Shown here piece by piece: positions 19,769 to 36,323 of a stretch of DNA of 37,290 nt (its first letter is position 1; each line of letters starts with the position of its first letter). Below the pieces are notes generated by a model. That model searched no databases. It was not told where the DNA came from and worked only from the letters and a program-made list of their open reading frames with translations. Made by a program: the position numbers and the translations under genes. Origin of the DNA: Geobacteraceae bacterium (lineage in GTDB: Bacteria > Desulfobacterota > Desulfuromonadia > Geobacterales > DSM-12255); NCBI GenBank assembly GCA_013377075.1, contig JACABD010000033.1, positions 1-37,290 on the forward strand. The letters are read 5' to 3'.

Positions 19769-22700
19769 CTACTTGGTTAAGAGTGCTGACCTGCGCAGCC
19801 TCAGCCCGCGGATTCCTGCATAGAGAGCTGCAAATACCCCTGCGAACAGCATTACAGGGTACTTGACCACAACGATAAGCGGTGTAAGCATGATCCGAAC
19901 CAGTGTGCGGAGCGATTCATGGTCACGGATAAAATCTGCAACCGGCGGACTGTATTTGTAGTAAAACTTCACAAATGCAGTACCAGGGGTACTTCTTAGA
20001 AGGATATCATCACGGAAATGGCGAAGTACCATAACGTGTGGATCAAGATAACTGCCGTAAGCTGCAGTTGCGATGAAACATCCGCCACCGCCACCACCTG
20101 CTGCTACCGGTTGTGTTACGCCGGTTTGAGTTGTCCCACCACTGCCGCCACCTGCAGCTGAGGTAACAACAATAGTTCCTACATAGGTATTGTTTGCAGC
20201 ATCTAGGTTTGCATCTTCATTAACAGCGTTATTAGTCACTGTGTATGTAATAAAATTAGCATCTATAGTTCCGGGGGTAAACTCAAGAGCGTGACCGTTT
20301 ACGACCTTGAAGAAGCGTGATCCTGCCGGAATATCACTTGAATATGTTACTGTCACAGACGCCGTTGTGGGGATATTAGTCAACTGGTACTGAGTTCCGT
20401 TCCAGACAGTCAAGCCCTGCAGTCCGGATAACTGAGGTGAATTAGAGGCAACATTTCCATAAAAATCAACCGTAGCACCGCTGGTAACTACAGCTGGCAC
20501 TCCTGTTCCCATCAAGGTCAGGGTAGTTGTTGCCCCTGTCGAGTCCACGACTTTAAGCGATCCCGAGTAGTTGGAAGTCTGAGTTGGTGAAAATGAGATT
20601 GTAATCGACTTCGAACCATTCTTACCTATTGTAGTATTGACTGGAAGTACACCGCTAAAAACACTGTTGGAAAGGGTTGCCGAGGTTATACTTACGGCAT
20701 TTGATGTAAGATTCGTCAATGTGAAGGAGTAGCTGGTCATTGTCCCTTTCAGCACATTACCAAAATTGTAGCTGCTTCCGGGAAGCTGAACACCAGCGGA
20801 ATCGCCGAACTGCAGAGCACCGGTTGTACCGGTATCGTTTACAGTTATTGAAAGCGTTTTCGTCTGGTTTCTGCCCGCATCATCTGTCACTGAAACTACA
20901 AAGCTGAAGACACCCGCAGCTGAAGCAGTACCCGAGATAAGACCTGTAGCTGGAGCAATGCTTAGTCCGTTAGGGAGCTGTCCGGAGAGGATAGTCCATG
21001 TCTGTATCGGTGAGCCGCCTGTGGCTTTCACTGACTGAGAGTATGAATCCCCTTTATTTACCGACGGTAGTTCGCTTGTAGTAATTGTCAATGGAGCAAA
21101 GACGTTTATGGAAAGGGGAAGATCGGCAGCTGAACCTGTTGTGTCTGTTGCACGGGCGGTGAATGTAATGGCTGAAGAGGTCGAAGCTGTCGGTGTCCCT
21201 GAGAGTACACCGGTCTCGCCATCAAGAAAGAGTCCAACGGCTGAAAGTGCGTTTAACTCTGAAGCTGAAGGAATGCTCCATACATATGCACCTGTACCGC
21301 CGGTAGCCTTAAGTGTGGTGGTATATGGGCTTCCCTTGACACCATCCTGTATTGAGCCGGTAAGACCTGCGACCTTCGCTGCTATTTTGATGGTGAATAT
21401 TTTTGTCGCAGCAGTAAGTGTAGGGATTAAAGTATCAGAGGCTTTTATTGTGAATGTCGTGTTTCCGGCTGCTGACGGGGTGCCTGAGATCTCCCCGGTC
21501 GCTCCGTCAAGAGTAAGACCTGTCGGAAGCACGACTGAGCCTGAAACTGACCAAGTCAATGTTCCGGAGCCGCCTGAGCCGGTAAGCACCTGGCTGTAGC
21601 CCGTCTGACCTGCTGTCCACTGGGCAAGCGGTGAAGTCGATGTTATGACAAGCGGATCAAGCACCTGCAGAGTGATCGGTATAGAAGCCGTGCGACCATT
21701 GATATCGGCTGCGGTCACGTTGAAGTTATAGACGCCGGATTTTGCCGGAGTACCGCTGATAATACCGTTAAGTTGACCGATTGCAAGTCCGGTCGGGTAC
21801 CCTGCTGAAAGACTATATGTGTAGGCCGAAGAGGTATTCCCGCCGGAAGCGACAATTGTCAGTGTGTATGGTGAATTCACGACACCCCTGGGAACGGTTG
21901 GCGTTGCTATTGTCACTTGGTCATACACTTTGATTGTGAAAGATTTGGTAACTGTGCCACCTCCAGCATCAGCGGCAGTAACAACTGCTGTATACGTACC
22001 TGCACTGTTTGGAATTCCACCTATGGTCCCTGTGAGGCTGTCGATATAGAGTCCGGGGGTATCGATGCCGGTAACTGACCAAAATACAGGAAGTGTTCCA
22101 GTCCCGGTGTTCAGTTCAATCGGCAGATTGTAAAGAAGACCTGCTGTACCGGTAGCTATCGATAGATTATCAGTCTTGATAGAAAGCGCCGGATTGATTG
22201 TGATCGTATAGCTCTTCACCCCTGTCAGAGCGGTGTTTACCGAGTCGGTCGCCTTTACTTCAAAGGTATAGGTTCCAACAGTACTCGGTGTACCTGATAT
22301 AACACCACCGGTTGAGATATCTAATCCTGTAGGGAAGCTGCCGGATGATTTTGTCCAGGTATACGTCCCACTGCCACCGGTTGCAGTCAATTTCTGACTA
22401 TAGGCTGTTGTAGCGTTGCGGGTCCAGTTAGGAAGGGTTGCCGGCTGTATCGCAATTGGCGTGTACACTGAAAAACTGAAGGTTGTAATCGACTTGGCAG
22501 CAAAAGCATCCTGCACCTGAACTGTCACGGAATAATAGCCATTCTGTGAAGGGTTCCCGTAAATGGTTCCGCCTCCCGCATTCAGCGAAAGCCCTGTTGG
22601 GAGGGCCCCGGCTATCACACTCCAGGTATATGGTTTAGTACCACCACTTGCCGTCAGCAATTGGTCGACAGCTGTTCCGGTTGGCATGTCGGGTATTTTA

Positions 22701-25700
22701 GTCGTTGCAATTTTAAGGTCAGTAACTGTCGCCTGCAAAAGCACCGTCAGCTTCGGCTGGCTGGCGAGATCTGTGTTTATGGTCAGAGTATCTGTTACAA
22801 CTCCGGCAGTGGCTGGGGCGGTAAAAATCACCTGAACATCATAATAGGCGTTTGGCAGTACGACGGCAGACGCTGAGCTGCCTAATGAGAATTTTGACCC
22901 AAGTGGCAGGGTTATGCTGCTTATGTTGAACACGGCAGTACCGGTATTGGTAACCCTTACAACCATTGTCTTGGAGGATGATGCTCCTACATAACCATAA
23001 TCAAGGGATGTCGGAGACAGAGAGGCAACCCCGACTGCTCCGATACCGGTCAGGTTTACTGCCTGAGTACCTGCTGTAGACACAACCGACATAGTCCCGC
23101 TGAATGCGCCCCCTGAAGTAGGCGTAAAAACTACCGGTACAGCCTTACTTGCACCTGCTGCCAGGGTAAAAGGAACTGTGGTGGTTGTTGAAAACATAGT
23201 GCTGCCACCGAAATTGAGGGCATTTACGGTCAGCGAAACATTTCCGGTATTCTGAACGGTTACGGAACTGCTCGAAGTTGAGCCAATAGTAACCGAGGTA
23301 AAATCAATTGATGTTGTCGACAAGGACATGATTGCCTGACTACCTGTCCCCTTAAGGGTCACTGTAGCACTTTGACTGGCTATATTGGTGTACACAGTGA
23401 AGCTGCCAGTATAATCCGCAGGCAGCGTCGGCGTGAACCTGACTGTTAACTGCTGTGAGTTTCCTGGAGCCAGGGTTACTGGCAGCGCCGGCGCACCGAT
23501 AATGCTGAAGACAGCGCTATTGGGGCCGCTAATAGAGGTGATATTTATGGGTGCGCTGCCGCTGTTGGTAAAAGTGACAACTCTATCCAGGGTGGAGCCT
23601 ACGGCAAGAGAACTAAAATCTATACTCTTAATATCCGCTTGGAAATCTGGGCTTACTGCAAGTCCGTTAAGGGACACGGTTGCATTACCGCCATCACTCT
23701 GTATGACAAAACTGCTGGAATAGCTTTGCGATGACCCTGATGGTGGCTTGAATGTAACGATTATGGACAGCTCGCCATTTGGAGCCAGCGTGCCTCCAGT
23801 TGTGGGTGACACCGTAAACACCGCGCCCTGGGCTCCGATAGGGGTACCGATGCTGGTAATATTAAGATCAACGTCACCGGTATTTTTCACTTTGAACGTT
23901 AGTGTCGATTGCTGACCCGCGGTTATCGAACCAAAATCAAGCAATGGCGGAGCGAAATAGGAATTATCTGTTTTCAGCAAGGCGAGATGGGCCTGGCCCA
24001 GTGAGAACATCTGGCCGTAGATATCTGCGCCGCTGACAGATGTGTTGCGAGCATCTTTCCAGACGGCCAGAAACTGGTTTGTTCCAGTCGAGTAAGCTAT
24101 TGACGGTGAATACTGGTTTGCAGGTGGAGTGGCAATGGCATAGTTTTCACCCCTGAGAGATCCTTCGGCATCCACATACTGCCCGTATATATCTAGATTC
24201 TCGTTGGAGACAGTGCCGTTTCTTCCATCTTGCCAGGCGACAAAATACCGCTGGTTAACTCCGTCGTAACTGAGAGCCGGAGCAGTCTGCCTGCTGTTGA
24301 TTACCGATGGATCGCTGGAACTGGTGATATTGATGTTGCTGTTGTAGAGGCCAGCGCCCGAGTTTATCAGCTGACCGTAGATTTTCGTGTTACTGCCACC
24401 ACGCATATCCTCCCATACGGCAAGAAACCGCTTTGTTATTGGGTCGAAGATTGCCGCCGGGTTAAAGGTGTCGCCTGCACCAGCATTCAGCTGTGCAGAC
24501 CTTACTACACCTAAAGAAATATATTGCGCGAAAAGTCCATAAACATTTGTTCCTGAGGCATTTGTCAATGAGTCAGGAGCCTGAGTAAATGTTGAAGTTA
24601 CCGGTTCGCCATAATCACACGCACTGTTGCTGTTGGTATCAGTACAGGTGACATTTAGAGTACCATTATTTCTTGTTCCATTCAGGACAAAGAGTGTCTG
24701 GGGTGATGTTGAATCGGAAGAGAGAGCTATGCCTGATACATTGGTATAAAACTCATACTCACGAGTTTCTGATAGAGCTGAAGCCGTTCCGCTGATCACT
24801 CTGTTCCCGAGGGTACTCTTGTTCCTGACTATATCAGCGCCGGTAACACCGGTATGGCTAATAATTTTCTTGGTTGTACCATCACTCCCGAGACGCATAT
24901 AGCCCGGAAAAGTTGTGTCTCCAAACTGCCAATGTACCTGTGCCCATCCAAAAGATATTTCATCAAGGGAATTCAGGTTTGAACGGGTTTCAGCCCAGCC
25001 CAGCCAGAACTCGTCACTGATATTGTCATAAATAGCGACCGGCTTCGATCTTGCCAGCAGAGTATCAGTAATGTCGGGTGTTGTAGTAGAGGTGTCTATC
25101 GAATATGGGGTATATTGATAGTCTGCCTTGACAGTGGAGAATTTTGCCGGTGGTGCGGAGAAACCGACTGCTGTCAATTGGCCGGATGAATAGTTGACTG
25201 CACCACCACCAGCTACAGGAGCACCAGCGACTATTGTGTTTTTGCTTACGTAAAAACCACCGATCCCATCGTCTTTTAGTTTTGCCGTACTTGCGTTTGA
25301 GAAAGTAGCCGATACAGTTATTGAATTTGCCACAAGGTTGCGATCAAGACCCTTATCGAAAGTAGTAGCGGTTCCATCACCAGTAGCAATTGTAACCGTT
25401 TTTGAGACAGAAGGGAGCGCTGTCACCGTCACCTTATTGGTTTCACGGGGGGTAAAATTTGCTGGAGTTGCAACCGCCAGGTTAGTTCCAGTAGGCCCGG
25501 TATAACCGGTACATGAGGCAACAGCCGGCGGTGTAATGTTAGTGTAGTATACAAAACCGCCAGATGCGTCACCATTGGTATCTTGCCAGGCAACAAAAAG
25601 CTTGCCACCAGGCTTGTAGGCCACGGTTGGCACGGTCTGATTGCCGGACTCAGCCACGTTGGGAGAACCAATAGTCTTGGCACTTACCAGAAATGACGAT

Positions 25701-26035
25701 CCGCATACGGTGCCGTCCTCTTTTACAAACTGACCGTAAATATCAGCACCGGACGTTAACCGGTTTCTCCAATCCTCCCATACGGAGAAATAGAGCTGTT
25801 TGTCCTGGAGATAGACAATTTTAGGATTTTGCTGATCCTCGCGGGCAGCGGAGGTATAATTGCCTAAAGTCGGAGTTCCACTCCCGCTGATAATAAGTGG
25901 ATTGCCAATCAGCTTGGCAGCAGTTTTTTTGGAACTGCCCCCACTCCCAATCTCCGATAAATAACCGCTGCCGGAACATGCGGCTACTATGGTAATGACC
26001 CCGACTAAGATCAGGTGCTTGATGTGCCTTATCAT
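19769..26035 (-). CDS. Giant multidomain repeat lipoprotein with CFI-box C-terminus
   Basis: A 2088-residue secreted protein. The N-terminus is a lipoprotein signal (VAAC lipobox, Cys20). Residues about 50-690 hold six or so propeller-like repeats ending in patterns such as [11 protein letters not shown] and ADIYGQF. Four HYDIN/choice-of-anchor-D Ig-like domains follow (about 698-1110, e.g. [22 protein letters not shown]), then seven He_PIG putative-Ig repeats (about 1112-1738, e.g. [19 protein letters not shown]). A fifth anchor-D-type domain (about 1740-1850) leads to a glycine-rich linker. The protein ends with a CFI-box module, [20 protein letters not shown] (about residue 1988), a hydrophobic stretch ([20 protein letters not shown]) and a basic tail. 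The C-terminus resembles a sorting signal. It probably forms a long cell-surface fibre or adhesin. It is flanked on both sides by DsbC_N lipoproteins. Confidence 0.88.
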
Positions 26036-26914: not shown

Positions 26915-29900
26915 TTAATTCATTATTTTCGGTGTAATAAATATGAGCATTTCGTTTTTGACCTTATTTTTGGAATTGGACTTAAACAGCCACCCCAAAA
27001 GAGGCATATCTGAAATATAGGGTATACCTGTGTCACTTTCTGTCTCGGAATCCACATAAATACCACCGATTACCGTTGTTTCACCATTCTTGACTACCAG
27101 CTCGGTGGTAGCCTCTTTCTTGTTTATTGGTGGTGTTGAACCACCACCGGTACCTACTGTATTATTACTTGCCTTTATTTTCATGTTAACACTACCGTCA
27201 GAGGTAATATGCGGTGTGACCTCAAGACTCAGGGCGGCTTCAATAAACTCGGTTTTAGCCCCATCGGTTGAGCTTGTGTTCTGATAGGGGATCATCTGAC
27301 CCTGTGAAATTTTTGCAGGTTTGTTGTTTACAGTCAGTACTTTTGGCGTTGAGATGATTTTCACTTGGCCGACAGATGCCGCAGCTGACAGTCTCAAGTC
27401 AAGTTGTATATTACTGATAAGCTTGCCGAACGACATACCAGCTGCAATTCCTCCGGTCGTAGACGTAGGAAGAACCGATGACACTATCCCTCCCATTGAA
27501 CCTGTCAGGCTGTTAATATTGGCGACAGAAGCGCTACCATCCGTATAACCGAAATTCCATTTCACCCCCATATCACGGGCAAAGCTGGATGAAGCCTCTA
27601 CAATCCTTGCCTCGATCATCACCTGTTTCTCAGGTACGTCTAGCTGCTCTAGTAACTTGCGCATCTTGTTAATGTTGGGGTCAATATCAACAACGATAAT
27701 CTTGTTAGTACGGGTATCACTTGAAATTGATGAGTCGTTACGCTTGCTCTTGAGATTTTTGAACTGATTTTCTATGTCCCCAAGTGTTGCAAAGTTTATG
27801 TCGAAAATCACTGTCGAGAGCGGCATCTTCTTCTCTTCTGTCAGACGAAACTCAACAGCTTCATCATCAAGTGATTTCATTTTTGTCTTAGGGCGAATCT
27901 GGACGATATTACCGTCTCTCTGCATCCCCAGCCCCTTGTTATCAAGGATGACATCCAGAGCCTGATCCCAGGGGACGTTTACGAGCTTGAGACTGATAGT
28001 CCCGGTTACATCGTCGGACACCAGAATATTCTGATTACTGACCTCAGCCAGAAGCTGGAATATCTTCTTGATATCGGCGTCTGAAAATTCAAGTGTCACT
28101 TTGCGGCCGGTATAAACTTTCCCTGTTTTGAGCACAGGCTGAGAAGCTTTTTCCAGCACAAATGCCTCATCAGAACTTTTTTCCTGCTTATTCTTTACAG
28201 GTTCTGTCCTGGTTTCAGCAACATCCTTTTCCATAAAATCATTTGTTTCCGGCTTCACATAAGCGGCTTTTACAGCCCTTGCCTGCCTTGAACTCTTTGA
28301 AACACTGATAGGCTCCTTAAACTCCCACTGGAAATTTCCGTTATCTTTTTTAAGGGTATTAGGAATACTCCCTTTAAAGTTTACCGCCACTCTCGATTCT
28401 GGTGAACTGCCCCCTTTTACGCTGAAAGGGGCAATGCTCTTTATGGCCGTGTCAAACGCTCTTGTATTAAGCTGTCGTTGCAGGTTAGAGGGCATACGAC
28501 AACTTTTCAGATAAAGAGAGAGTCCTGTTTTGGTTTTTACTGGCTCACCAGCTACACAGCTCCCGCTTGTACGGATCGTAACTTTTGAGACACCATTGGC
28601 CTGTGTAAATTCAACTGCATCGACAGCTCCCGGCAATGTTTTTGCTGCAGGTTTGGGCTTGGCTGTAATTTCAGGTCTGGCATCTGTTTCAGCGGGTGCA
28701 GTCTTTGCTGCCGGGGGCTCAACCGGGGCCGCTATAGCAGCCGCAGCTGATTTTTTAGGTTCTGCAACAACCGGAGTGGGTACAACTGCTGAGACAGGTT
28801 CGGCGACTGGTGCCACAGCAGCAGTTGCTGCTACAGCCGGTGCGGTCGCTGCTTCTGTTACAGCAGGTGCTATGGTGGCAGGCATTGAAAGCTCGTTGAC
28901 GGCTACTTTAGGTTCGCTGTTTTCTGCTTTAGACGAAAGAGGCACCTGCTCAGCAAAACTTATTTCGAGATTAGAGCCATTCCTGGCAACAGAATAGTGG
29001 GGAACTGGCCCGGTAGCATCGAAGACAACTCTGAGTTTTTCCGGGGACCCACCGAGCCTTACCTTACTCAGATTGAAACCGTTAACATCCTTAATTCTCT
29101 CAAAAACTCCACTCTTGGTTTTTGGAATATCTATAATAAGCCTGTCCGGCTTATTCAACTTAAACGGCTTGAATGATTCAGGCGCAGCGGAAAACTCCAG
29201 CAGTATTCCGCCATCAAGCTTCCTTATTGCTGTAAGAGCTCTGTCACCTGGCTTGAACTGCATCCGGTTACGCTCTGTAAGGAACACTCCACTGCCTGCA
29301 ACTATTTCTTTTTGACCACTGATAGACGCATTTACAGCTACCGGCTCTGCTAGCGGTGCAATCTGTTTTTCTGTTACCGTCTTGGGCTCAGCAACAGCTT
29401 CAGTAGGTGCTGCCGTATCGGCCTGTTTTTCTGTATTTGCCTGTAATGGAACTACTTTATCCAATGTTTGCTTATCAGGAACAACCGCAGGCTCAGCAAC
29501 TACCAGCAGAGGGGATGGTGCTGTTACAGGCTGTTCAGCAGTTGCCGATTTTGGTTGCTGAGTTTCAATCTTTGCAGTACCTGCATCCTGATTTACTAGC
29601 GACACCTTTTCTGACTGCGGGAGAGGTACTGATATAACCAGCCTCTTTTTCTCCTGTTTATCAAGTATGGCGGACACCTCAGTTTTAGAACTAAGGGCTA
29701 TATCTATCCGGCTCAACACACTGTTACCAAACTCGTGCTTTGAAACGTCGATCTGCTTCAGGCTACCTTTGTTTACAAGCAAGGGGAGCTTCTGGGCGCC
29801 TGGTGATGTCTGTGCAAGATCAACAATCACTCTCGGAGGGTTTTCAAGCATATAGTAAGTGTACACAATGGGCTTGTCAGAAGTGATCTCTATGGATGAG

Positions 29901-30061
29901 GCATCATCTGAGACGGTTATACCTGTAATCTTCGCAGATTCGGTAACACCAGGAACCGGCTCTGACTGAACCGACTTCATCTGCTGGGCACAACCAAAAG
30001 TTAAACAAAGCGCAAGTATAACCAGCGACCTTAGAACAATGCCAACTCGTCGTATTATCAT
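26915..30061 (-). CDS. pilQ: Type IV pilus secretin PilQ
   Basis: This is the outer-membrane channel through which the pilus exits. It is unusually long at 1048 residues. It has a lipobox-like signal (LTFGC, Cys24) and an AMIN domain (about 45-146), then a Pro/Ala/Glu-rich stretch. A second AMIN domain (about 278-370) and a second low-complexity Ala/Pro/Glu linker (about 390-470) follow, and then a third AMIN-like domain (about 480-590). The secretin short N-terminal domain comes next (RKVTLEFSDADIKKIFQLLAE), then the N-domain with DTRTNKIIVVDIDP and the C-terminal secretin barrel (EKQVMIEARIVEASSSFARD through EMLIFITPK). AMIN domains bind peptidoglycan and help localise the secretin. It is last of pilM-N-O-P-Q, nine bases after pilP. 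Confidence 0.97.
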   Translation of the reverse strand: MIIRRVGIVLRSLVILALCLTFGCAQQMKSVQSEPVPGVTESAKITGITVSDDASSIEITSDKPIVYTYYMLENPPRVIVDLAQTSPGAQKLPLLVNKGSLKQIDVSKHEFGNSVLSRIDIALSSKTEVSAILDKQEKKRLVISVPLPQSEKVSLVNQDAGTAKIETQQPKSATAEQPVTAPSPLLVVAEPAVVPDKQTLDKVVPLQANTEKQADTAAPTEAVAEPKTVTEKQIAPLAEPVAVNASISGQKEIVAGSGVFLTERNRMQFKPGDRALTAIRKLDGGILLEFSAAPESFKPFKLNKPDRLIIDIPKTKSGVFERIKDVNGFNLSKVRLGGSPEKLRVVFDATGPVPHYSVARNGSNLEISFAEQVPLSSKAENSEPKVAVNELSMPATIAPAVTEAATAPAVAATAAVAPVAEPVSAVVPTPVVAEPKKSAAAAIAAPVEPPAAKTAPAETDARPEITAKPKPAAKTLPGAVDAVEFTQANGVSKVTIRTSGSCVAGEPVKTKTGLSLYLKSCRMPSNLQRQLNTRAFDTAIKSIAPFSVKGGSSPESRVAVNFKGSIPNTLKKDNGNFQWEFKEPISVSKSSRQARAVKAAYVKPETNDFMEKDVAETRTEPVKNKQEKSSDEAFVLEKASQPVLKTGKVYTGRKVTLEFSDADIKKIFQLLAEVSNQNILVSDDVTGTISLKLVNVPWDQALDVILDNKGLGMQRDGNIVQIRPKTKMKSLDDEAVEFRLTEEKKMPLSTVIFDINFATLGDIENQFKNLKSKRNDSSISSDTRTNKIIVVDIDPNINKMRKLLEQLDVPEKQVMIEARIVEASSSFARDMGVKWNFGYTDGSASVANINSLTGSMGGIVSSVLPTSTTGGIAAGMSFGKLISNIQLDLRLSAAASVGQVKIISTPKVLTVNNKPAKISQGQMIPYQNTSSTDGAKTEFIEAALSLEVTPHITSDGSVNMKIKASNNTVGTGGGSTPPINKKEATTELVVKNGETTVIGGIYVDSETESDTGIPYISDMPLLGWLFKSNSKNKVKNEMLIFITPKIMN

Positions 30062-30070
30062 CGATAACTC

Positions 30071-30721
30071 CTACTTTTTCCTTAATAACGTAAGCTTTAC
30101 CACTCTCTTTCGTATACGACCGTTGTCGTCTCTGGAACTCTCTTCAACCTCAACAGCATTACTTGTGATTTTCTTCACCACACCATCATTATTCCCAATG
30201 AGCATCCCTTGCCTGACAACATAGCCTTTGTTATTGGGGTCAATAATAAGCGCTGTGTTTTCCTTAAGACCAGTTACGATACCAGAGACTTTTAATTTTT
30301 CGGTGTCAAAGGTCTGAATAGGCAGCGGATCTCTTACTCTGCCCTTTGATGACTTGTTTGCAGAAGACTGTTGAGGAAGTGGCATCTGGGCATAAGGTTT
30401 AAATGGATCCCGCTTATTTGTAAAATCCAGACTTACGCCAGCTGGAGCGACTATCCGCTTGGAAGTAGTCAGCTGAGCCTGGACAATATTTTTTACAGGC
30501 AGCTTTTTAGAAGTGGATAGAGCTGCCTGAACAGGTTTCACTGGCAATACAGGGGCAGCCGGAGCTGTTGCCTGTTCGGGCTTTTTGGGAAGCGGAGTTG
30601 CCTTTGCTGGCGGAGGGGGAGGCTCCTTCTTCTTGCATCCCGGCACGGCTATAGCAAGTAATAGCATGCAGAGAAGTCCACCTTTTACTAAAAGGTTTTT
30701 TTTACTTCTTCTTTTTATCAT
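30071..30721 (-). CDS. pilP: Type IV pilus assembly lipoprotein PilP
   Basis: An inner-membrane lipoprotein linking the PilMNO platform to the PilQ secretin. It has 216 residues, a lipobox (AVPGC, Cys29) and a long proline/alanine linker that begins KKKEPPPPPAK. The C-terminal beta-sandwich is typical of PilP: DPFKP, LPIQTFDTEKLKVSGIV, ALIIDPNNKGYVVRQGMLIGNN and a basic RKRVVKLTLLRKK ending. The start overlaps the pilO end by 20 bases. AAGG directly abuts the ATG with no spacing, so translation probably relies on coupling from pilO. Confidence 0.94.
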   Translation of the reverse strand: MIKRRSKKNLLVKGGLLCMLLLAIAVPGCKKKEPPPPPAKATPLPKKPEQATAPAAPVLPVKPVQAALSTSKKLPVKNIVQAQLTTSKRIVAPAGVSLDFTNKRDPFKPYAQMPLPQQSSANKSSKGRVRDPLPIQTFDTEKLKVSGIVTGLKENTALIIDPNNKGYVVRQGMLIGNNDGVVKKITSNAVEVEESSRDDNGRIRKRVVKLTLLRKK

Positions 30722-31310
30722 CCTTGGGGTCCTTAATCTCGCTCTTGTCCATAAATCTGAATGTTGTAGCCTGACACGTCACCTTGACAACATTGCGACC
30801 TCTATCATTACGTATATCTGAAAAAGACACATTACTTATATTCACAATCCGTGGAAGATTTCCTACCGCAACAAAGAAGTTAGCAATACCTAAAAAAGGC
30901 CCTGAGACAACTATGTCGACTGGCACTTCAGCATAAAACTCTTTTGGAACCTCCGGCTTTGGTCGGAATGCTAAAAAATCAAGTCCGACAGACTTACCTG
31001 CACTTGTTATGCTCGTAAGAAGCGTTGGGATCTCTTTTGAGTTTGGTAACTCGGTAAGGGCACTATCAAGATCCTTTTTCAGCCCCTCGAATTCAGCCCT
31101 GAATTTAGGCAGGTTGTTTGCTAGTTTTCGCGTTTCTCCTATTTCTGCGCGGATTTTGTCCAGTTTACCCTGTAGAGTTTTCAACTCTACATCTTTTGGT
31201 TTTTGGAGCAGAAAATAATAGGTTGCTCCTAACGCAACAATCACTACCAGAAGCCCGGCCATTTTCTGCTTCATCGGAAGATTGACTATTTTTTCGACTT
31301 GCGGATGCAT
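30702..31310 (-). CDS. pilO: Type IV pilus inner-membrane protein PilO
   Basis: A bitopic protein that forms a heterodimer with PilN in the pilus alignment complex. It has 202 residues: one TM helix (about 17-36, MAGLLVVIVALGATYYFLLQ), a coiled coil (about 40-90) and a ferredoxin-like periplasmic domain (PTLLTSITSAGKSVGLDFLAFRPKPE, then PVDIVVSGPFLGIANFFVAVGNLPRIVNISN). The tail is lysine-rich because it overlaps pilP by 20 bases. AAGGA lies seven bases upstream of the start. It is 49 bases after pilN, the widest gap in the pilM-Q operon. Confidence 0.95.
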   Translation of the reverse strand: MHPQVEKIVNLPMKQKMAGLLVVIVALGATYYFLLQKPKDVELKTLQGKLDKIRAEIGETRKLANNLPKFRAEFEGLKKDLDSALTELPNSKEIPTLLTSITSAGKSVGLDFLAFRPKPEVPKEFYAEVPVDIVVSGPFLGIANFFVAVGNLPRIVNISNVSFSDIRNDRGRNVVKVTCQATTFRFMDKSEIKDPKDDKKKK

Positions 31311-31359: not shown

Positions 31360-31938
31360 CTATTTTTTCGGCGGTTCCTTCTTTGGTTCTTCTTTTTTAT
31401 CCACCTTAATAATACAAGTCAGGTCAAATTTCTTAAGCTTAACTCCGTTAACTTCCTGTTGTTCTGAAACCTGAAGATCTACATTCCCGTACTCCTGAGA
31501 TGACTGAATACTCCTCATGAACTCGGCAATAAGGTCTTCATTGTATGCCAATCCGGATATTGAAACAGCCTGTCCGGATTCCTGATATTTTATCAACCAC
31601 ATTTTTTCAGGCACGATGTCACTCAATCTGGCGAGCCTTATTGCAGGACCGGTTTTGCCCTTTCTAAGCTGACTTAGAATATCAAGTTTCTTTTGCACTT
31701 CAGCCTGCAACTTTTTCAAGTTGTCGATTTCGCCAATTTTCTTCTTAAGAGTGGCAAGTTCTTCTTCAGATCGGGTAATTTCTTTTTTTGCAGTGGATAT
31801 TTTAGTAATGGTAATGGAATAGTAAACGCCTGCAGCTATAACGGATGTAATAAAGATCAGCCCAAGAATTATCAATTGCTGGGTAAGTGTCTCTTTCTTC
31901 TTTGAAGCTCTGTAAGGGAGGAGATTAATTTTAATCAT
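31360..31938 (-). CDS. pilN: Type IV pilus inner-membrane protein PilN
   Basis: A bitopic partner of PilO whose cytoplasmic N-terminus docks onto PilM. It has 192 residues and opens with the PilM-binding motif MIKINLLPYRASKKKE. A TM helix (about 22-44), a coiled coil (about 48-95) and a periplasmic domain with VPEKMWLIKYQESGQAVSISGLA and FDLTCIIKVDKKE follow. It overlaps pilM by four bases (ATGA), typical for this pair. It ends in a Lys/Glu/Pro-rich tail. Confidence 0.96.
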   Translation of the reverse strand: MIKINLLPYRASKKKETLTQQLIILGLIFITSVIAAGVYYSITITKISTAKKEITRSEEELATLKKKIGEIDNLKKLQAEVQKKLDILSQLRKGKTGPAIRLARLSDIVPEKMWLIKYQESGQAVSISGLAYNEDLIAEFMRSIQSSQEYGNVDLQVSEQQEVNGVKLKKFDLTCIIKVDKKEEPKKEPPKK

Positions 31939-32990
31939 TTGTCGCCGAGCCTCCTTGATGCAAGTCCGACAGCAACAGTCATTATCGGTGCAATCTCATC
32001 GAGGAACTCTTTTTCAAACTTCTTTTCGTCACACTTAATATTATTAAAGGGGTTAATAACCTCTACAGGCAGGGCAAGCTTTGTTGCAACAGACTCAAAA
32101 AGATTAAGGCTTTTACAACCACCACCGGAGAGAAGCACCTTGGTTATTCTCCCCTCAATGGCATTTGAATTATAGAAGTCAAGCGAACGCCTGATTTCAA
32201 GAGAGAGGGTCTCGTTGACCCTGTAAATAGACTCTATAAGATCAGGTGATGATGAGCGGCTAGCAGACAACTTCATTTTCTCGGCATCTTCGCCGCTGAT
32301 AGACAGCTTTTTCTGAATTTCTTCAGTATAGAGTCCGCCCCCCATCTGAACATCACGGGTAAAAAGAGAGATTCCACCTTTTATTACATTTAGATTCATC
32401 ATGTTCGCGCCGATGTTTACCAGAGCATATACCTCATCGGGCTCCATGTCGTAATTCATCTCGAACGCATTTTGAAGCGCAAAAACGTCAACATCGACCA
32501 GAAGCAACTTCAACCCCGCCTCAGCAAAGACCGACTGATAATCATTTACAATGTCTTTCTTGCTTGCAACAAGGAGCACAAACATTTTAGAAGGATCAAT
32601 ATCGTCAGGCTCAAGTATCTGGAAGTCTATATTGACGTCATTTACATCAAACGGAATATACTGCTCTGCCTCCCACTGAATCTCTTCCTCAAGATCTTCA
32701 GCCGACATGGCAGCAAGCGTAATCTTCCTAATAATGACGGAGTTCCCTGAAACCGAACTGGCAACATCCCTTAGATTCGCGATCTGCAGATCATTAAACA
32801 GTTTGCGTAAACCATCAACTACTGCAGATGTGTCCATCAGGGTATTGTCCACAATTGCCTCAGAAGGCAATGGAACAATGCCGACATACTCAAGCTCGTA
32901 GCTGCCCTTCGCCCCTTTTAGCTTTATCAGCTTTATGGAGGTCGAGCCTATATCGATTCCGATCAGATCTTTCTTTTTCGCAAAAAACAT
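31935..32990 (-). CDS. pilM: Type IV pilus assembly ATPase PilM
   Basis: A cytoplasmic actin-like (FtsA-fold) protein that binds ATP and the PilN N-terminus. It has 351 residues. The nucleotide-binding signatures are LIGIDIGSTSIKLIKLKG (about 8-25), NIGANMMNLNVIKGG (about 192-206) and VLLSGGGCKSLNLFES (about 289-304). EEIQWEAEQYIPFDVNDVNIDFQILE is a conserved PilM block. AGGA precedes the ATG at 32990. It is the first pil structural gene of the operon, 21 bases downstream of the small XRE regulator, and so is controlled by the riboswitch leader and the internal promoter described below. Confidence 0.97.
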   Translation of the reverse strand: MFFAKKKDLIGIDIGSTSIKLIKLKGAKGSYELEYVGIVPLPSEAIVDNTLMDTSAVVDGLRKLFNDLQIANLRDVASSVSGNSVIIRKITLAAMSAEDLEEEIQWEAEQYIPFDVNDVNIDFQILEPDDIDPSKMFVLLVASKKDIVNDYQSVFAEAGLKLLLVDVDVFALQNAFEMNYDMEPDEVYALVNIGANMMNLNVIKGGISLFTRDVQMGGGLYTEEIQKKLSISGEDAEKMKLSASRSSSPDLIESIYRVNETLSLEIRRSLDFYNSNAIEGRITKVLLSGGGCKSLNLFESVATKLALPVEVINPFNNIKCDEKKFEKEFLDEIAPIMTVAVGLASRRLGDK

Positions 32991-33011
32991 AATCTATTCC
33001 TGTCTTGCGTA

Positions 33012-33212
33012 TTAGTCCTGAAAAACTTTTTCCCTGTCGGTCAATGCAAAACCGAGAGCCAGAATTATCTTTCTCTTGGTTTCAACACGGCATAGCTCAC
33101 CCCGCTCTATCCGGTCAATGGTAACTGCTGAAACACCCGCAAGGCGTGCCAACTCAGCCTTGCTCATCAGCTTTGCTTCTCGTAACTTCTTGAGATTGTT
33201 CTTTTCTTTCAT
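33012..33212 (-). CDS. Small XRE-family (Cro/CI-type) DNA-binding protein
   Basis: A 66-residue protein that is almost entirely one helix-turn-helix domain: KNNLKKLREAKLMSKAELARLAGVSAVTIDRIERGE, then TKRKIILALGF. The frame can begin at TTG 33227, but ATG 33212 has GGATC at a suitable distance and is preferred. It has no ligand or membrane domain. It lies between the riboswitch and pilM and is 21 bases from pilM, so it is co-transcribed and may regulate the operon itself. An 8-base inverted repeat at 33308-33334 upstream is a candidate operator. Confidence 0.85.
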   Translation of the reverse strand: MKEKNNLKKLREAKLMSKAELARLAGVSAVTIDRIERGELCRVETKRKIILALGFALTDREKVFQD

Positions 33213-33258
33213 ATCGGCACGATCCAAATTCTTATAGAATTTTCACATCATGTCGCGG

Positions 33259-33286
33259 AATTTACACCAATTTGGATGTTTGTCAA
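33259..33286 (-). promoter_or_regulatory. Candidate internal promoter for the XRE gene and pilMNOPQ
   Basis: On the minus strand a perfect TTGACA (33286-33281), a 16-base spacer and TAAATT (33264-33259) would start transcription near 33252, downstream of the riboswitch terminator. It would give expression independent of the riboswitch. Confidence 0.5.
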
Positions 33287-33307
33287 GATATTTTACCTAA
33301 TTATGTC

Positions 33308-33334
33308 AAATTATGTGCAAATGATGCATAATTT
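33308..33334. repeat. Inverted repeat upstream of the XRE gene, possible operator
   Basis: AAATTATG (33308-33315) and CATAATTT (33327-33334) are perfect inverted arms separated by 11 bases. The site lies about 22 bases upstream of the -35 box of the internal promoter, where an activator or repressor could act. The XRE protein is the obvious candidate (inference). Confidence 0.4.
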
Positions 33335-33363
33335 AATAAACTGATACTATTAGCGCTATAACG

Positions 33364-33413
33364 CAAAAAAGCCGGATGCCATATATCTGTCTGGATATTT
33401 CGGCAACCCGGCT
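33364..33413 (-). terminator. Riboswitch-controlled intrinsic terminator
   Basis: On the minus strand AGCCGGGTTGCC (33413-33402) pairs with GGCATCCGGCT (33380-33370), 11 pairs with one bulged base and one wobble, and is followed by TTTTTT. The 5' arm is also the conserved 3' end of the GEMM aptamer. Folding the aptamer would therefore compete with the terminator, the logic of a ligand-activated (ON) switch. Confidence 0.82.
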
Positions 33414-33480
33414 GTCTGCGTGAGACCCATTAGGCTTTCCGCCCCACCCTCGCGGATGGTTGAGTATTATCGTGTATCGG
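33395..33480 (-). promoter_or_regulatory. GEMM-I riboswitch aptamer, probable cyclic AMP-GMP (GEMM-Ib) type
   Basis: The minus strand shows the GEMM-I core in order: CACGATAATACTCAACC, a P2 stem CCATCC-GCGA-GGGTGG capped by a GNRA tetraloop, then GGCGGAAAGCC. A P3 hairpin GTCT-CACGC-AGAC follows, and the conserved 3' segment AGCCGGGTTGCCG. Aligned by length to the Vibrio Vc2 aptamer, the ligand-contacting G20 is replaced by A, the mark of the Geobacter cyclic AMP-GMP subclass. That ligand assignment rests on my hand alignment. It precedes the XRE-pilMNOPQ operon. Confidence 0.82.
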
Positions 33481-33498
33481 TTATGTGAGGTGCGACCA

Positions 33499-33526
33499 AT
33501 ATTATTCATGCCGCCTAAAATGTCAA
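33499..33526 (-). promoter_or_regulatory. Promoter of the riboswitch leader
   Basis: On the minus strand a perfect TTGACA (33526-33521) is followed after 16 bases by TAATAT (33504-33499), giving a start near 33492, about 15-20 bases ahead of the aptamer. It sits in the 60 bases just after the pilX stop codon. Confidence 0.6.
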
Positions 33527-33537
33527 CGCTTTGCTGC

Positions 33538-34176
33538 CTAGTACTCGTAAAGAACTGAAACTCTGGAATTTTCTTTGGGATTTAGTGTTTTTTCACTCGC
33601 AACCTCAACTCTATAGATAAAATGGGCCAGGTTCATCGTAGTCCCTGCGCTCAGCTCGGTAACCCCACCCCCCATTAATTGCGAAGCAACGCCACCAGTT
33701 CCTGATGAAGTAGACCCTGGGTAAGGAACCCCTTCCAAAGTATCAACTATTTTTGAATAAACGGTAAAACTCTGACTATTAGTACCCACTAGCTTCATGG
33801 TCATATCAGGACTTAGTTTCGCGTTAAGACTCTTGTCACCGCAGGCGCTCCAATTTGTCCCGGTATTTGCATAATCACGCTTTTGCCTGACACAGACACT
33901 ACTTCCGATCGTCATGGAGTTAAAATTAATTTTGTTGTAATCCGATCTAATTATGCTGGTTGATACGTTTGTAAATAGCCTTGGAAGAACATCATTCATG
34001 GTTATATCAGCACCACCATATGCAGCCTCTGTTGCATTTCTGTATACCTTCATAGCAGCGGTACCTTTAGTCCCTTGTATAACCATGGCTAGCACACCCA
34101 TGATAAGCGTAAGGATTATCAAAGTGAACATCAACGCGGTGATCAGTGCAATACCTTTATTATTTATCAATCTCAT
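33538..34176 (-). CDS. pilX: PilX-like minor pilin / pilus assembly protein
   Basis: A 212-residue protein with a PilX-type N-terminus: a short basic leader, cleavage after Gly8 in NNKG|IALITALMFTLIILT, and one long hydrophobic helix (about 9-35). The Glu5 typical of major pilins is missing, as in PilX/GspK-type subunits. The rest is a variable soluble domain of unknown fold (YRNATEAAYGGADITMNDVLPRLF onward). I choose ATG 34176 (GAGG five bases upstream) over GTG 34191. It is last in the pilY1-fimU-pilV-pilW-pilX run, 15 bases after pilW. No terminator is visible before the riboswitch promoter. Confidence 0.78.
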   Translation of the reverse strand: MRLINNKGIALITALMFTLIILTLIMGVLAMVIQGTKGTAAMKVYRNATEAAYGGADITMNDVLPRLFTNVSTSIIRSDYNKINFNSMTIGSSVCVRQKRDYANTGTNWSACGDKSLNAKLSPDMTMKLVGTNSQSFTVYSKIVDTLEGVPYPGSTSSGTGGVASQLMGGGVTELSAGTTMNLAHFIYRVEVASEKTLNPKENSRVSVLYEY

Positions 34177-34191
34177 CTGAGCCTCTAACAC

Positions 34192-35379
34192 CTAATTCAG
34201 ATTATTTGGCCTAACCACTAGCTTATACAGTTTCCAACGATAGTTTTTCATGCTTGCAGCTGTAAGATCCACAGTCCGTGTAAGCGCAGCTTCACCCATA
34301 TCTACATCCCCTACAACAAAACCGGTGCTGGTATTTGTAAAGTTTTTGTCAAAAGTACCGTCCTGAGCAAGGATATATACCTTGATTAACTTAAGATGCT
34401 GCCGGATATATGCCGGATCATTCATATCCACCGGGAAAGCGGGTGTTGTTGACCCTGAAAACTGGGTAGAATCAGGACTAGTGTAATAATCAACATTACT
34501 TGTAATCCCGCTTGTATTCCATCCGAAAACTATCTGCATGTCAGCAACGCAATCAAGTATGGGGAAATAAGTATACACGCCACTCGCAGGATTAAGTGAT
34601 GCCTTGGTTAGCACCCCTGTTGCTGGAGAGCAGCTTGTCGGCAACTCTGTTCCAACCAGCTTCACGTAGTAATCAGAACGATTGAATGGCCTTTTGGGTA
34701 CATCATCAGCACTGATGCCGTAATAGTAATACTGCACAGCACCCGCTGGAGGGATATAAGGAGCAACCATTGCAGCCGTGTTATATGTAGTAGAAAACGG
34801 AGTGGCACTTGATGGATCATTAATAAGTGTTCGCGTGATAACGCCGCTCCGGTAAACCTGCCTGACAACAATCATATTATCGTTAAGATTAAAATCTACC
34901 CCGCCGCCCCAGACTTTTGGCATAGTAGAACTCACACCGTCAATATAGCTCCACTTTTGCGAAACCTTATTTCTAGGATCCCCCTGGGAGGTTCCTTTAA
35001 GCGCCAAATAATCAGAATTAGCCAGGACACCGGTGGCACTTACATTGTTCCCGGCAACAACCGCCCGGGGCAGATATGTCACTTCATCATTATATGCTTT
35101 ACCTGGTAGAGATGAAGCCTCCGTATAGGTAAGTAGCGGATTCGATACGTCGGTAAAGAGCCCAAAACCTGCCTGTATAAGATCGCGTCGAAAAATCTCA
35201 AGTCCTATCATACCCTCGATATTGCTCTCCTCACTTTTTGACACAATGTTAGCCTGCCTTACCACAAGGTCAAACGACTTCCCTGCGATAATAATAACAA
35301 CCGTAAAAACGGCCATTACGATAATCATCTCAAGCAGCGTAAAACCAGAGCAATTTTTCGGAGTTTTCCCTGTTAGCAT
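34192..35379 (-). CDS. pilW: PilW-like minor pilin
   Basis: A 395-residue prepilin-like protein. Its prepilin peptidase site is NCSG|FTLLEMIIVMAVFTVV with the Glu at +5 (E17) and a hydrophobic helix of about 20 residues. SNIEGMIGLEIFRRDLIQAGFGLF follows, the PilW-type continuation after the helix. The large C-terminal domain is variable and Ser/Thr/Pro-rich. PilW, PilX, PilV and FimU are thought to prime pilus assembly together with PilY1. AAGG lies seven bases upstream of the ATG. The gene is 16 bases after pilV. Confidence 0.87.
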   Translation of the reverse strand: MLTGKTPKNCSGFTLLEMIIVMAVFTVVIIIAGKSFDLVVRQANIVSKSEESNIEGMIGLEIFRRDLIQAGFGLFTDVSNPLLTYTEASSLPGKAYNDEVTYLPRAVVAGNNVSATGVLANSDYLALKGTSQGDPRNKVSQKWSYIDGVSSTMPKVWGGGVDFNLNDNMIVVRQVYRSGVITRTLINDPSSATPFSTTYNTAAMVAPYIPPAGAVQYYYYGISADDVPKRPFNRSDYYVKLVGTELPTSCSPATGVLTKASLNPASGVYTYFPILDCVADMQIVFGWNTSGITSNVDYYTSPDSTQFSGSTTPAFPVDMNDPAYIRQHLKLIKVYILAQDGTFDKNFTNTSTGFVVGDVDMGEAALTRTVDLTAASMKNYRWKLYKLVVRPNNLN

Positions 35380-35395
35380 AAATACCTTTTAATAT

Positions 35396-35839
35396 CTATC
35401 TTGACGGTGTATTGGCAATCACTGTTGCAATAGAATGTGTCTTGCGAACCCCTTTTTCCTTCCATGAGACATTGATCTGAACATTTTTTGTGTACACACT
35501 AACGGTCGAATTATTTGCAAATTTAGTAACCTTGTCGGAAACGGAGTAATTTACAAAAGCTAACCCTGCATATGCGCTTTTGGTTAAATTAGGATACTCG
35601 GTTGTCGTCTTCAATCCATTGGAAGTAATTGTGGAGAATGCCATAACCCTTACCCGCCCAAGAGCCTGATCAGCAAGCTGAACAGCAGCGGCCCTCTTCT
35701 TTTCGCTACCGTTTGTTGCAATGGCTATATTTACCGACTGGAGAAGGGCCATAAGCCCGAACATCAGAATGACAATTGCCACAAGAAACTCTGTCAGGGT
35801 AAATCCGTATGGATTATTTAACCTTACAATCAGTCGCAC
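35396..35839 (-). CDS. pilV: PilV-like minor pilin
   Basis: A 147-residue type IV prepilin. Leader cleavage is expected at NNPYG|FTLTEFLVAIVILMFGLMALLQ with Glu at +5 (E17). The helix then continues into TNGSEKKRAAAVQLADQALGRVRVMAF, a typical PilV motif. The start is GTG at 35839 with GGAGGA seven bases upstream. The first 26 bases overlap the end of the fimU/gspH-like gene, so translation is coupled. The C-terminal domain is a short beta-rich globular domain. Confidence 0.87.
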   Translation of the reverse strand: MRLIVRLNNPYGFTLTEFLVAIVILMFGLMALLQSVNIAIATNGSEKKRAAAVQLADQALGRVRVMAFSTITSNGLKTTTEYPNLTKSAYAGLAFVNYSVSDKVTKFANNSTVSVYTKNVQINVSWKEKGVRKTHSIATVIANTPSR

Positions 35840-36323
35840 TACTCATCCTCCCCATATTTGTCCGGATTGCATGAACAACTATGCAGTTTGTCCCCTCGTT
35901 ATAAATAACAGGGGTTATTGCAAATGTCATATTGGTTGTCGTTACCCCGTTCACATCAAACTCCAGAATGTTATTACTGGCAGTAAAGTCAATCAATCCG
36001 CTTGTTGAATCAACTTTTTGAAGCTTAAACGGAAGTGCCGTTGAACTTCTTAATGCTCCGGCGGTTTGCGGTTCAGCTGAAGATGAATATACCTTGAACT
36101 GATAACTATTAGGTTGAAAAAAGATAATCGAGCGCTGTTTGTTCTGCATAGCCGAGAGTCTTGTAGCAACAACAGTGCTATAAATTTCCCTGGTTTGTCG
36201 TTCTATATCGGCTTTCTTTTTCATTGCATTATAGTTAGGGATTGAAACAGCCGCCAAAATCCCCATTATGAGGATTGCAAACAGCACTTCAACCAATGTA
36301 AAACCCTTGGGTCGCACTGTCAT
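35814..36323 (-). CDS. fimU: FimU/GspH-like minor pseudopilin
   Basis: A 169-residue prepilin with a very short leader: MTVRPKG|FTLVEVLFAILIMGILAAVSIPNY, Glu at +5 (E12). A helix and a GspH/FimT-type beta domain with a probable C-terminal disulfide (cysteines in GTNCIVV and ATDCKVK) follow. Its start overlaps the pilY1 stop by four bases (ATGA) and its end overlaps pilV by 26. It is the second gene of the minor pilin run. FimT or FimU naming is not separable here. Confidence 0.84.
   Translation of the reverse strand: MTVRPKGFTLVEVLFAILIMGILAAVSIPNYNAMKKKADIERQTREIYSTVVATRLSAMQNKQRSIIFFQPNSYQFKVYSSSAEPQTAGALRSSTALPFKLQKVDSTSGLIDFTASNNILEFDVNGVTTTNMTFAITPVIYNEGTNCIVVHAIRTNMGRMSSATDCKVK

Follow-up and report, generated by a model that had tools for sequence, protein, structure and literature searches.

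Probable riboswitch control of the pilMNOPQ operon

In the 37,290-nucleotide stretch of DNA analysed here (the window), we consider it quite probable that the type IV pilus genes pilMNOPQ are controlled by a transcriptional ON riboswitch of the GEMM-Ib type, together with a proximal source of basal expression. Without ligand, the nascent RNA would put the 3' strand of the aptamer, together with its ligand-pairing C, into a terminator, and transcription would stop near 33365. With cGAMP bound, this strand would stay in the aptamer and polymerase would continue through xre and pilMNOPQ. A promoter-like element right behind the terminator probably supplies basal expression that is independent of the riboswitch, and cGAMP would then make the pilus alignment complex and the secretin more abundant without being their only switch. 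The ligand, the ligand-dependent switching, the activity of both promoters and the co-transcription of the operon are the parts of this reading that we infer. With it, an uncharacterised relative of Geobacter joins those in which cGAMP is known to be linked to the type IV pilus machine.

The window is contig 54 of a genome assembly of 3.7 Mb. The original prediction named an XRE gene and pilMNOPQ as the target, which was borne out by the Pfam identities of the downstream genes: the order PilM, PilN, PilO, PilP, PilQ of the type IV pilus alignment operon is complete (Table 1). The in-frame ATG start of xre was picked by comparison with relatives. Downstream of pilQ, positions 19769-26035 of the minus strand encode a secreted-looking protein of 2088 residues with repeated Ig-like domains (He_PIG, HYDIN-type), in which a C-terminal stretch of 12 residues was remarked.

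Table 1. Features of the riboswitch region and the pilus operon
Feature	Position	Strand	Basis
Four ORFs, likely minor pilins	33538..36323	minus	PF07963 (type IV pilin-like methylation motif) in 3 of 4
Distal promoter-like site TTGACA-16-TAATAT, ahead of riboswitch	33499..33526	minus	10/12 consensus matches
GEMM-I aptamer	33399..33475	minus	RF01051, 43.0 bits, model 1-87 of 87
A replacing Vc2 G20 (A14 of crystallised cGAMP riboswitch)	33465	minus	aptamer alignment
C expected to pair with ligand guanine (C75 equivalent)	33403	minus	C in 21/21 aligned aptamers
Terminator hairpin and T run; 5' arm is aptamer 3' strand	33365..33413	minus	folding
Proximal promoter-like site TTGACA-16-TAAATT, between terminator and xre	33259..33286	minus	10/12 consensus matches
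xre, 66 aa from ATG at 33212 (71 aa from upstream TTG at 33227)	33012..33212	minus	PF01381 HTH_3, 1.8e-08
pilM	31935..32990	minus	PF11104, 5.2e-77
pilN	31360..31938	minus	PF05137, 1.9e-19
pilO	30702..31310	minus	PF04350, 1.2e-44
pilP	30071..30721	minus	PF04351, 3.7e-15
pilQ-type secretin with AMIN domains	26915..30061	minus	PF00263, 3.3e-48; PF11741, 1.7e-22

Aptamer and ligand pocket

The window holds one Rfam match at the gathering threshold, a match to the c-di-GMP-I family (RF01051) at 33475-33399 of the minus strand (E 2.6e-05), and a whole-genome search with the same model recovered it again. Rfam keeps both ligand types, c-di-GMP and cGAMP, in this one family. The GEMM-I class had been proposed from the letters of the sequence, and the covariance model agrees with it over its full length (43.0 bits against a gathering score of 35). 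Every motif described earlier was also found in the aptamer: the GNRA loop of P2 (GCGA), the core GGAAAGCC, the P3 hairpin and the 3' segment AGCCGGGTTGCCGAA.

The junction architecture, GNRA tetraloop, P3 and 3' segment are shared with RNAs of the Vc2 type in RF01051. The difference lies at 33465, which corresponds to G20 in the Vc2 numbering: the alignment puts A there, as the original prediction had it. The equivalent base is A in 21/21 aligned aptamers (14 linked to pilM and seven others of this genome), and the pair beside the pocket is C-G in 20 of these 21. For the cGAMP riboswitch, simulations started from crystal structure 4YAZ gave hydrogen bonds at G8, A9, A11, A12, A14, C15, G40, A41, A42 and C75 (PMC6274999). 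With the register set so that A14 stands directly ahead of P2, where Vc2 has G20, the window aptamer is identical at every one of these ten bases. The RNA at 33475-33399 is thus likely of the GEMM-Ib (3',3'-cGAMP) type, with cGAMP as its likely ligand.

When the 3' arm of the terminator is left out, the folding energy of the stretch is no better than that of shuffles (z 0.51), so the aptamer is unsupported by energy alone and its support comes from the covariance match. This energy and the moderate score of 43 bits are what a chance match, or a decayed riboswitch without function, would have in its favour. We regard such an origin as very improbable, because the match is full-length and above the curated cut-off, the pocket is intact, and in 14/14 pilM-linked aptamer loci the aptamer is followed by a T run behind a terminator-like hairpin. 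The riboswitch is real, well formed and most likely functional.

Other GEMM-I RNAs and GGDEF proteins of the genome

The genome contains at least eight GEMM-I RNAs that exceed the cut-off (scoring covered 150 of 282 first-look candidates, and weak ones were possibly missed). All of them have A where Vc2 has G20, and the G20 type was found in 0 of the 8. There are two tandem pairs, L003/L005 and L004/L008. The second pair (contig 13, 21515-21756) has C at the otherwise kept equivalent of A12 (2/21 aligned aptamers), and judged from this base its ligand preference may differ from that of the other aptamers. Another RNA, L002 (contig 39, 30226-30300), differs from the other seven: it has A20, but its P2 is diverged and the pair next to the pocket is the usual G-C. 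Its terminator-like hairpin with T run is located further downstream.

GGDEF domains gave 18 matches, two of which are pieces of one gene. The signature reads GHxxGS in two (L016 and L018), GHxxGD in 11 and GINCGD in one, and no motif was read in four. Serine at the signature position (GHxxGS) marks Hypr enzymes able to make cGAMP (PMC6456294). The genome thus encodes two predicted Hypr-type GGDEF domains, L016 and L018, and with them a putative capacity to make cGAMP.

The natural ligand might instead be c-di-GMP, or both dinucleotides, if A at position 20 broadens specificity rather than switching it. A at this position leaves c-di-GMP possible, since the omcST riboswitch is reported to respond to both c-di-GMP and cGAMP (PMC6456294); c-di-GMP binding by cGAMP riboswitches is also cited in PMC9262584, and most GGDEF matches carry the ordinary GHxxGD motif. 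On the other side, all ten pocket bases fit the cGAMP class, and the genome pairs its A-type GEMM-I RNAs with two Hypr-type domains. We therefore think that c-di-GMP as sole or second natural ligand is improbable.

Terminator and predicted switching fold

Folding predicts that about 33413-33370 form a long hairpin, and six T come next at 33370-33365. The 3' strand of the aptamer pairs in it with GGCATCCGGCT, immediately ahead of the six T, which bears out the earlier claim that the aptamer 3' end is reused as the terminator 5' arm. The 131-base leader folds at -46.3 kcal/mol against a shuffle mean of -33.2 (z -3.7), and 0 of 200 shuffles were as good. A simple terminator scan found none; it permits loops of 3-8 bases only and for this reason overlooked the hairpin that folding shows.

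Stepwise folding was done for a ligand-free transcript with an assumed start at 33495 and without tertiary contacts. Before the terminator forms, the ligand-binding C (33403) pairs with a leader base at a probability of 0.62-0.84, and the apo aptamer is hence not the predicted minimum. When the transcript reaches 33376, 33403 pairs with 33379 in the 3' arm of the terminator at a probability of 1.00. Aptamer and terminator compete for one strand and are mutually exclusive by folding prediction. The ON logic first proposed is supported as a prediction, and PMC9262584 describes the orthologous pilM riboswitch of Geobacter metallireducens as an ON-switch responding to cGAMP.

Occurrence of the riboswitch at pilM loci of relatives

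PilM was sought in the genome of the window and in 57 relatives, and 56 pilM loci from 52 genomes were taken, with L027 being the window's own. One pilM lying 56 bases from a contig end (G044) was left out, and five of the 58 genomes gave no strong pilM match (G001, G002, G012, G019 and G052). The aptamer stands upstream of pilM in 14/56 loci, from 13 genomes. All 14 share the order aptamer, terminator, xre, pilM, all have A at position 20, and the aptamer sequence is strongly kept among them. We built a search model, R1, from these aptamers; its structure comes from RNAalifold, is without P1 and is partly unlike the accepted GEMM fold, so it served for searching only. With R1, the other 42 pilM loci gave 0 matches at E up to 1.

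The absence of the riboswitch from 42/56 pilM loci counts against the ON-switch explanation. The xre gene was located by motif in 45/56 loci; the XRE motif was not found in the remaining 11, where a divergent XRE may be missed. The riboswitch is therefore a variable layer (14/56) on a commoner xre-pilM unit (45/56). In a named set, which overlaps the 56 loci and is not independent of them, 14/52 pilM loci carry the aptamer, all among 16 Geobacter-like loci and all of the A type. The closest named PilM, of 'Geobacter sp. isolate Bin_37_8', is 77% identical.

Some relatives show further arrangements. The assembly G005 has two pilM loci (L029, E 4.6e-156, and L057, E 4.4e-151), and both are equipped with a separate A-type aptamer and xre; a duplication or mixed strains might account for this. 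In six loci of relatives (L083, L084, L085, L086, L089 and L098), two GEMM-I RNAs share a strand: an A-type one lies upstream, and a G-type one follows after about 160-255 bases, at about 1246-1344 and 1501-1594 in match orientation, with the G read by eye in the alignment. The ORF after the pair has a weak fibronectin-III match, below the Pfam cut-off, in L084 and L089. Such a tandem of an A-type (cGAMP-like) and a G-type (c-di-GMP-like) RNA could be a two-messenger gate.

Promoter-like sites

A promoter had been predicted ahead of the aptamer, and a promoter-like sequence with 10/12 consensus matches is present there (TTGACA-16-TAATAT). Both strands of 32980-33800 together hold five promoter-like sites, compared with 1.7 (sd 1.4) in shuffles. 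This distal site is poorly conserved: in the scan, 4/14 aptamer loci have a promoter-like site within 150 bases before the aptamer, and the same placement, 20-23 bases before it, occurs in two of the 14, L027 (the window) and L028. Further upstream, the group of pilin-like ORFs ends 62 bases before the aptamer. The nearest of them (33538-34191) has no Pfam match, and similar pilin-like ORFs, judged by eye, precede the aptamer in 11 of 13 named aptamer loci with upstream ORFs listed. No terminator was found between these ORFs and the aptamer by the simple scan (loops of 3-8 bases), and read-through from the pilin-like ORFs would therefore also meet the riboswitch.

The proximal element is better kept. 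TTGAC stands 106-122 bases before the SKxELA codons of xre in 45/45 loci with xre located, 14 with the riboswitch and 31 without it, and in 13/13 loci of the named set. Over 200 rounds of dinucleotide shuffling, this placement had a mean of 2.1 and a maximum of 6 of 45, a control that overstates the strength of TTGAC because the loci are related and the test window of 95-140 bases was set after the promoter-score results were known. Conservation is lower in the second hexamer than in TTGAC. The stricter promoter score of 9 of 12 is reached by 18/45 proximal elements, of which 11 belong to the 14 aptamer loci, and in many of the 45 a TGTAAAT-like sequence follows TTGAC at a distance suited to a promoter. 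An AT-rich stretch (TATAATTA-like; 33330-33287 of the minus strand in the window) lies directly before TTGACA in many of these xre-pilM loci, and it is a candidate UP element or XRE operator.

The conserved TTGACA might be a binding site, for example an operator of the XRE protein, rather than a promoter. The element is always beside xre in the loci examined and adjoins the AT-rich stretch, and the TATAAT-like hexamer is variable. Against this, the TGTAAAT-like sequences keep promoter spacing, and the 31 riboswitch-free loci need some transcription start for xre-pilM, either here or further upstream. A pure binding site seems to us rather unlikely, and we prefer to read the element as a putative promoter. 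Its transcripts would bypass the riboswitch because it lies after the terminator. With a promoter-like element of conserved first hexamer in this position, the riboswitch is probably not the sole switch of the operon.

Strength of the riboswitch in operon control

In Geobacter sulfurreducens, loss of GacA, a Hypr cGAMP synthase, lowers 'a transcriptional regulator' and pilMNOP 2-3 fold, while pgcA and omcAHG change 10-16 fold and omcST again 2-3 fold (PMC6456294). The GEMM-Ib regulon of that species thus resembles the window in having a regulator and pilMNOP as cGAMP target, with an effect of only 2-3 fold there. These data would fit a minor role for the riboswitch, in which the proximal promoter, possibly controlled by XRE, accounts for most pilMNOPQ expression and cGAMP gives a small addition; so would TTGAC at the same place in all 45 xre loci, 31 of them without a riboswitch. 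But omcST responds as weakly, so a weak effect has other possible causes, the proximal promoter is putative with a variable second hexamer, and the aptamer sequence is strongly kept where it occurs. So small a role is possible, yet we doubt it, and prefer an ON riboswitch acting together with proximal basal expression.

Control of pilMNOPQ in this bacterial order could have two tiers: an older promoter before xre, present with or without a riboswitch, would give basal expression and possibly be XRE's own target, and some lineages would have gained, upstream of it, a separately promoted cGAMP riboswitch as a gain control. This arrangement would explain why the pilus genes respond 2-3 fold and other riboswitch targets 10-16 fold, and a second, riboswitch-independent promoter may be the cause of the smaller effect. 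Should the proximal element be a promoter, the operon would have a basal level that the riboswitch raises, and the published response would be simply explained. The probability of the two-tier reading is reduced by the 27/45 loci that fail the stricter promoter score, and we hold its chances of being right and wrong to be about equal. No description of it was found in the open-licence full-text literature, and it may be new.

Comparison with known Geobacter systems

The original prediction made the pilus machine itself a second-messenger output. The target is supported; the idea is already published for Geobacter, and the riboswitch is probably not the only switch. G. sulfurreducens is apparently absent among the 141 genomes searched (best PpcA identity 86%), and the crystallised cGAMP riboswitch has no exact match in them (best 96%). 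In G. metallireducens, several predicted cGAMP-activated genes rose when cGAMP fell (PMC12285248), which speaks against a simple scheme of activation. Disruptions of pilus genes are reported to shift cGAMP levels, those of pilA-C down and that of pilB up (PMC8835794), so a cGAMP-controlled pilus operon could close a feedback loop between the pilus genes and cGAMP.

The nearest studied system is the pilM riboswitch of G. metallireducens. According to PMC9262584, it binds cGAMP in vitro with a K_D of 0.25 uM at best and loses binding once C75 is sequestered by G102, and its switching was simulated from the binding data. The words XRE, internal promoter and second promoter do not occur in the text of that paper. 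Like the window, this system has a GEMM-I aptamer of the cGAMP type before pilM and a terminator made from the aptamer 3' strand, which sequesters the ligand-pairing C, a likeness that follows the published description and not the sequence. The window riboswitch is an orthologue of this studied riboswitch, and control of pilus genes by cGAMP has been published before.
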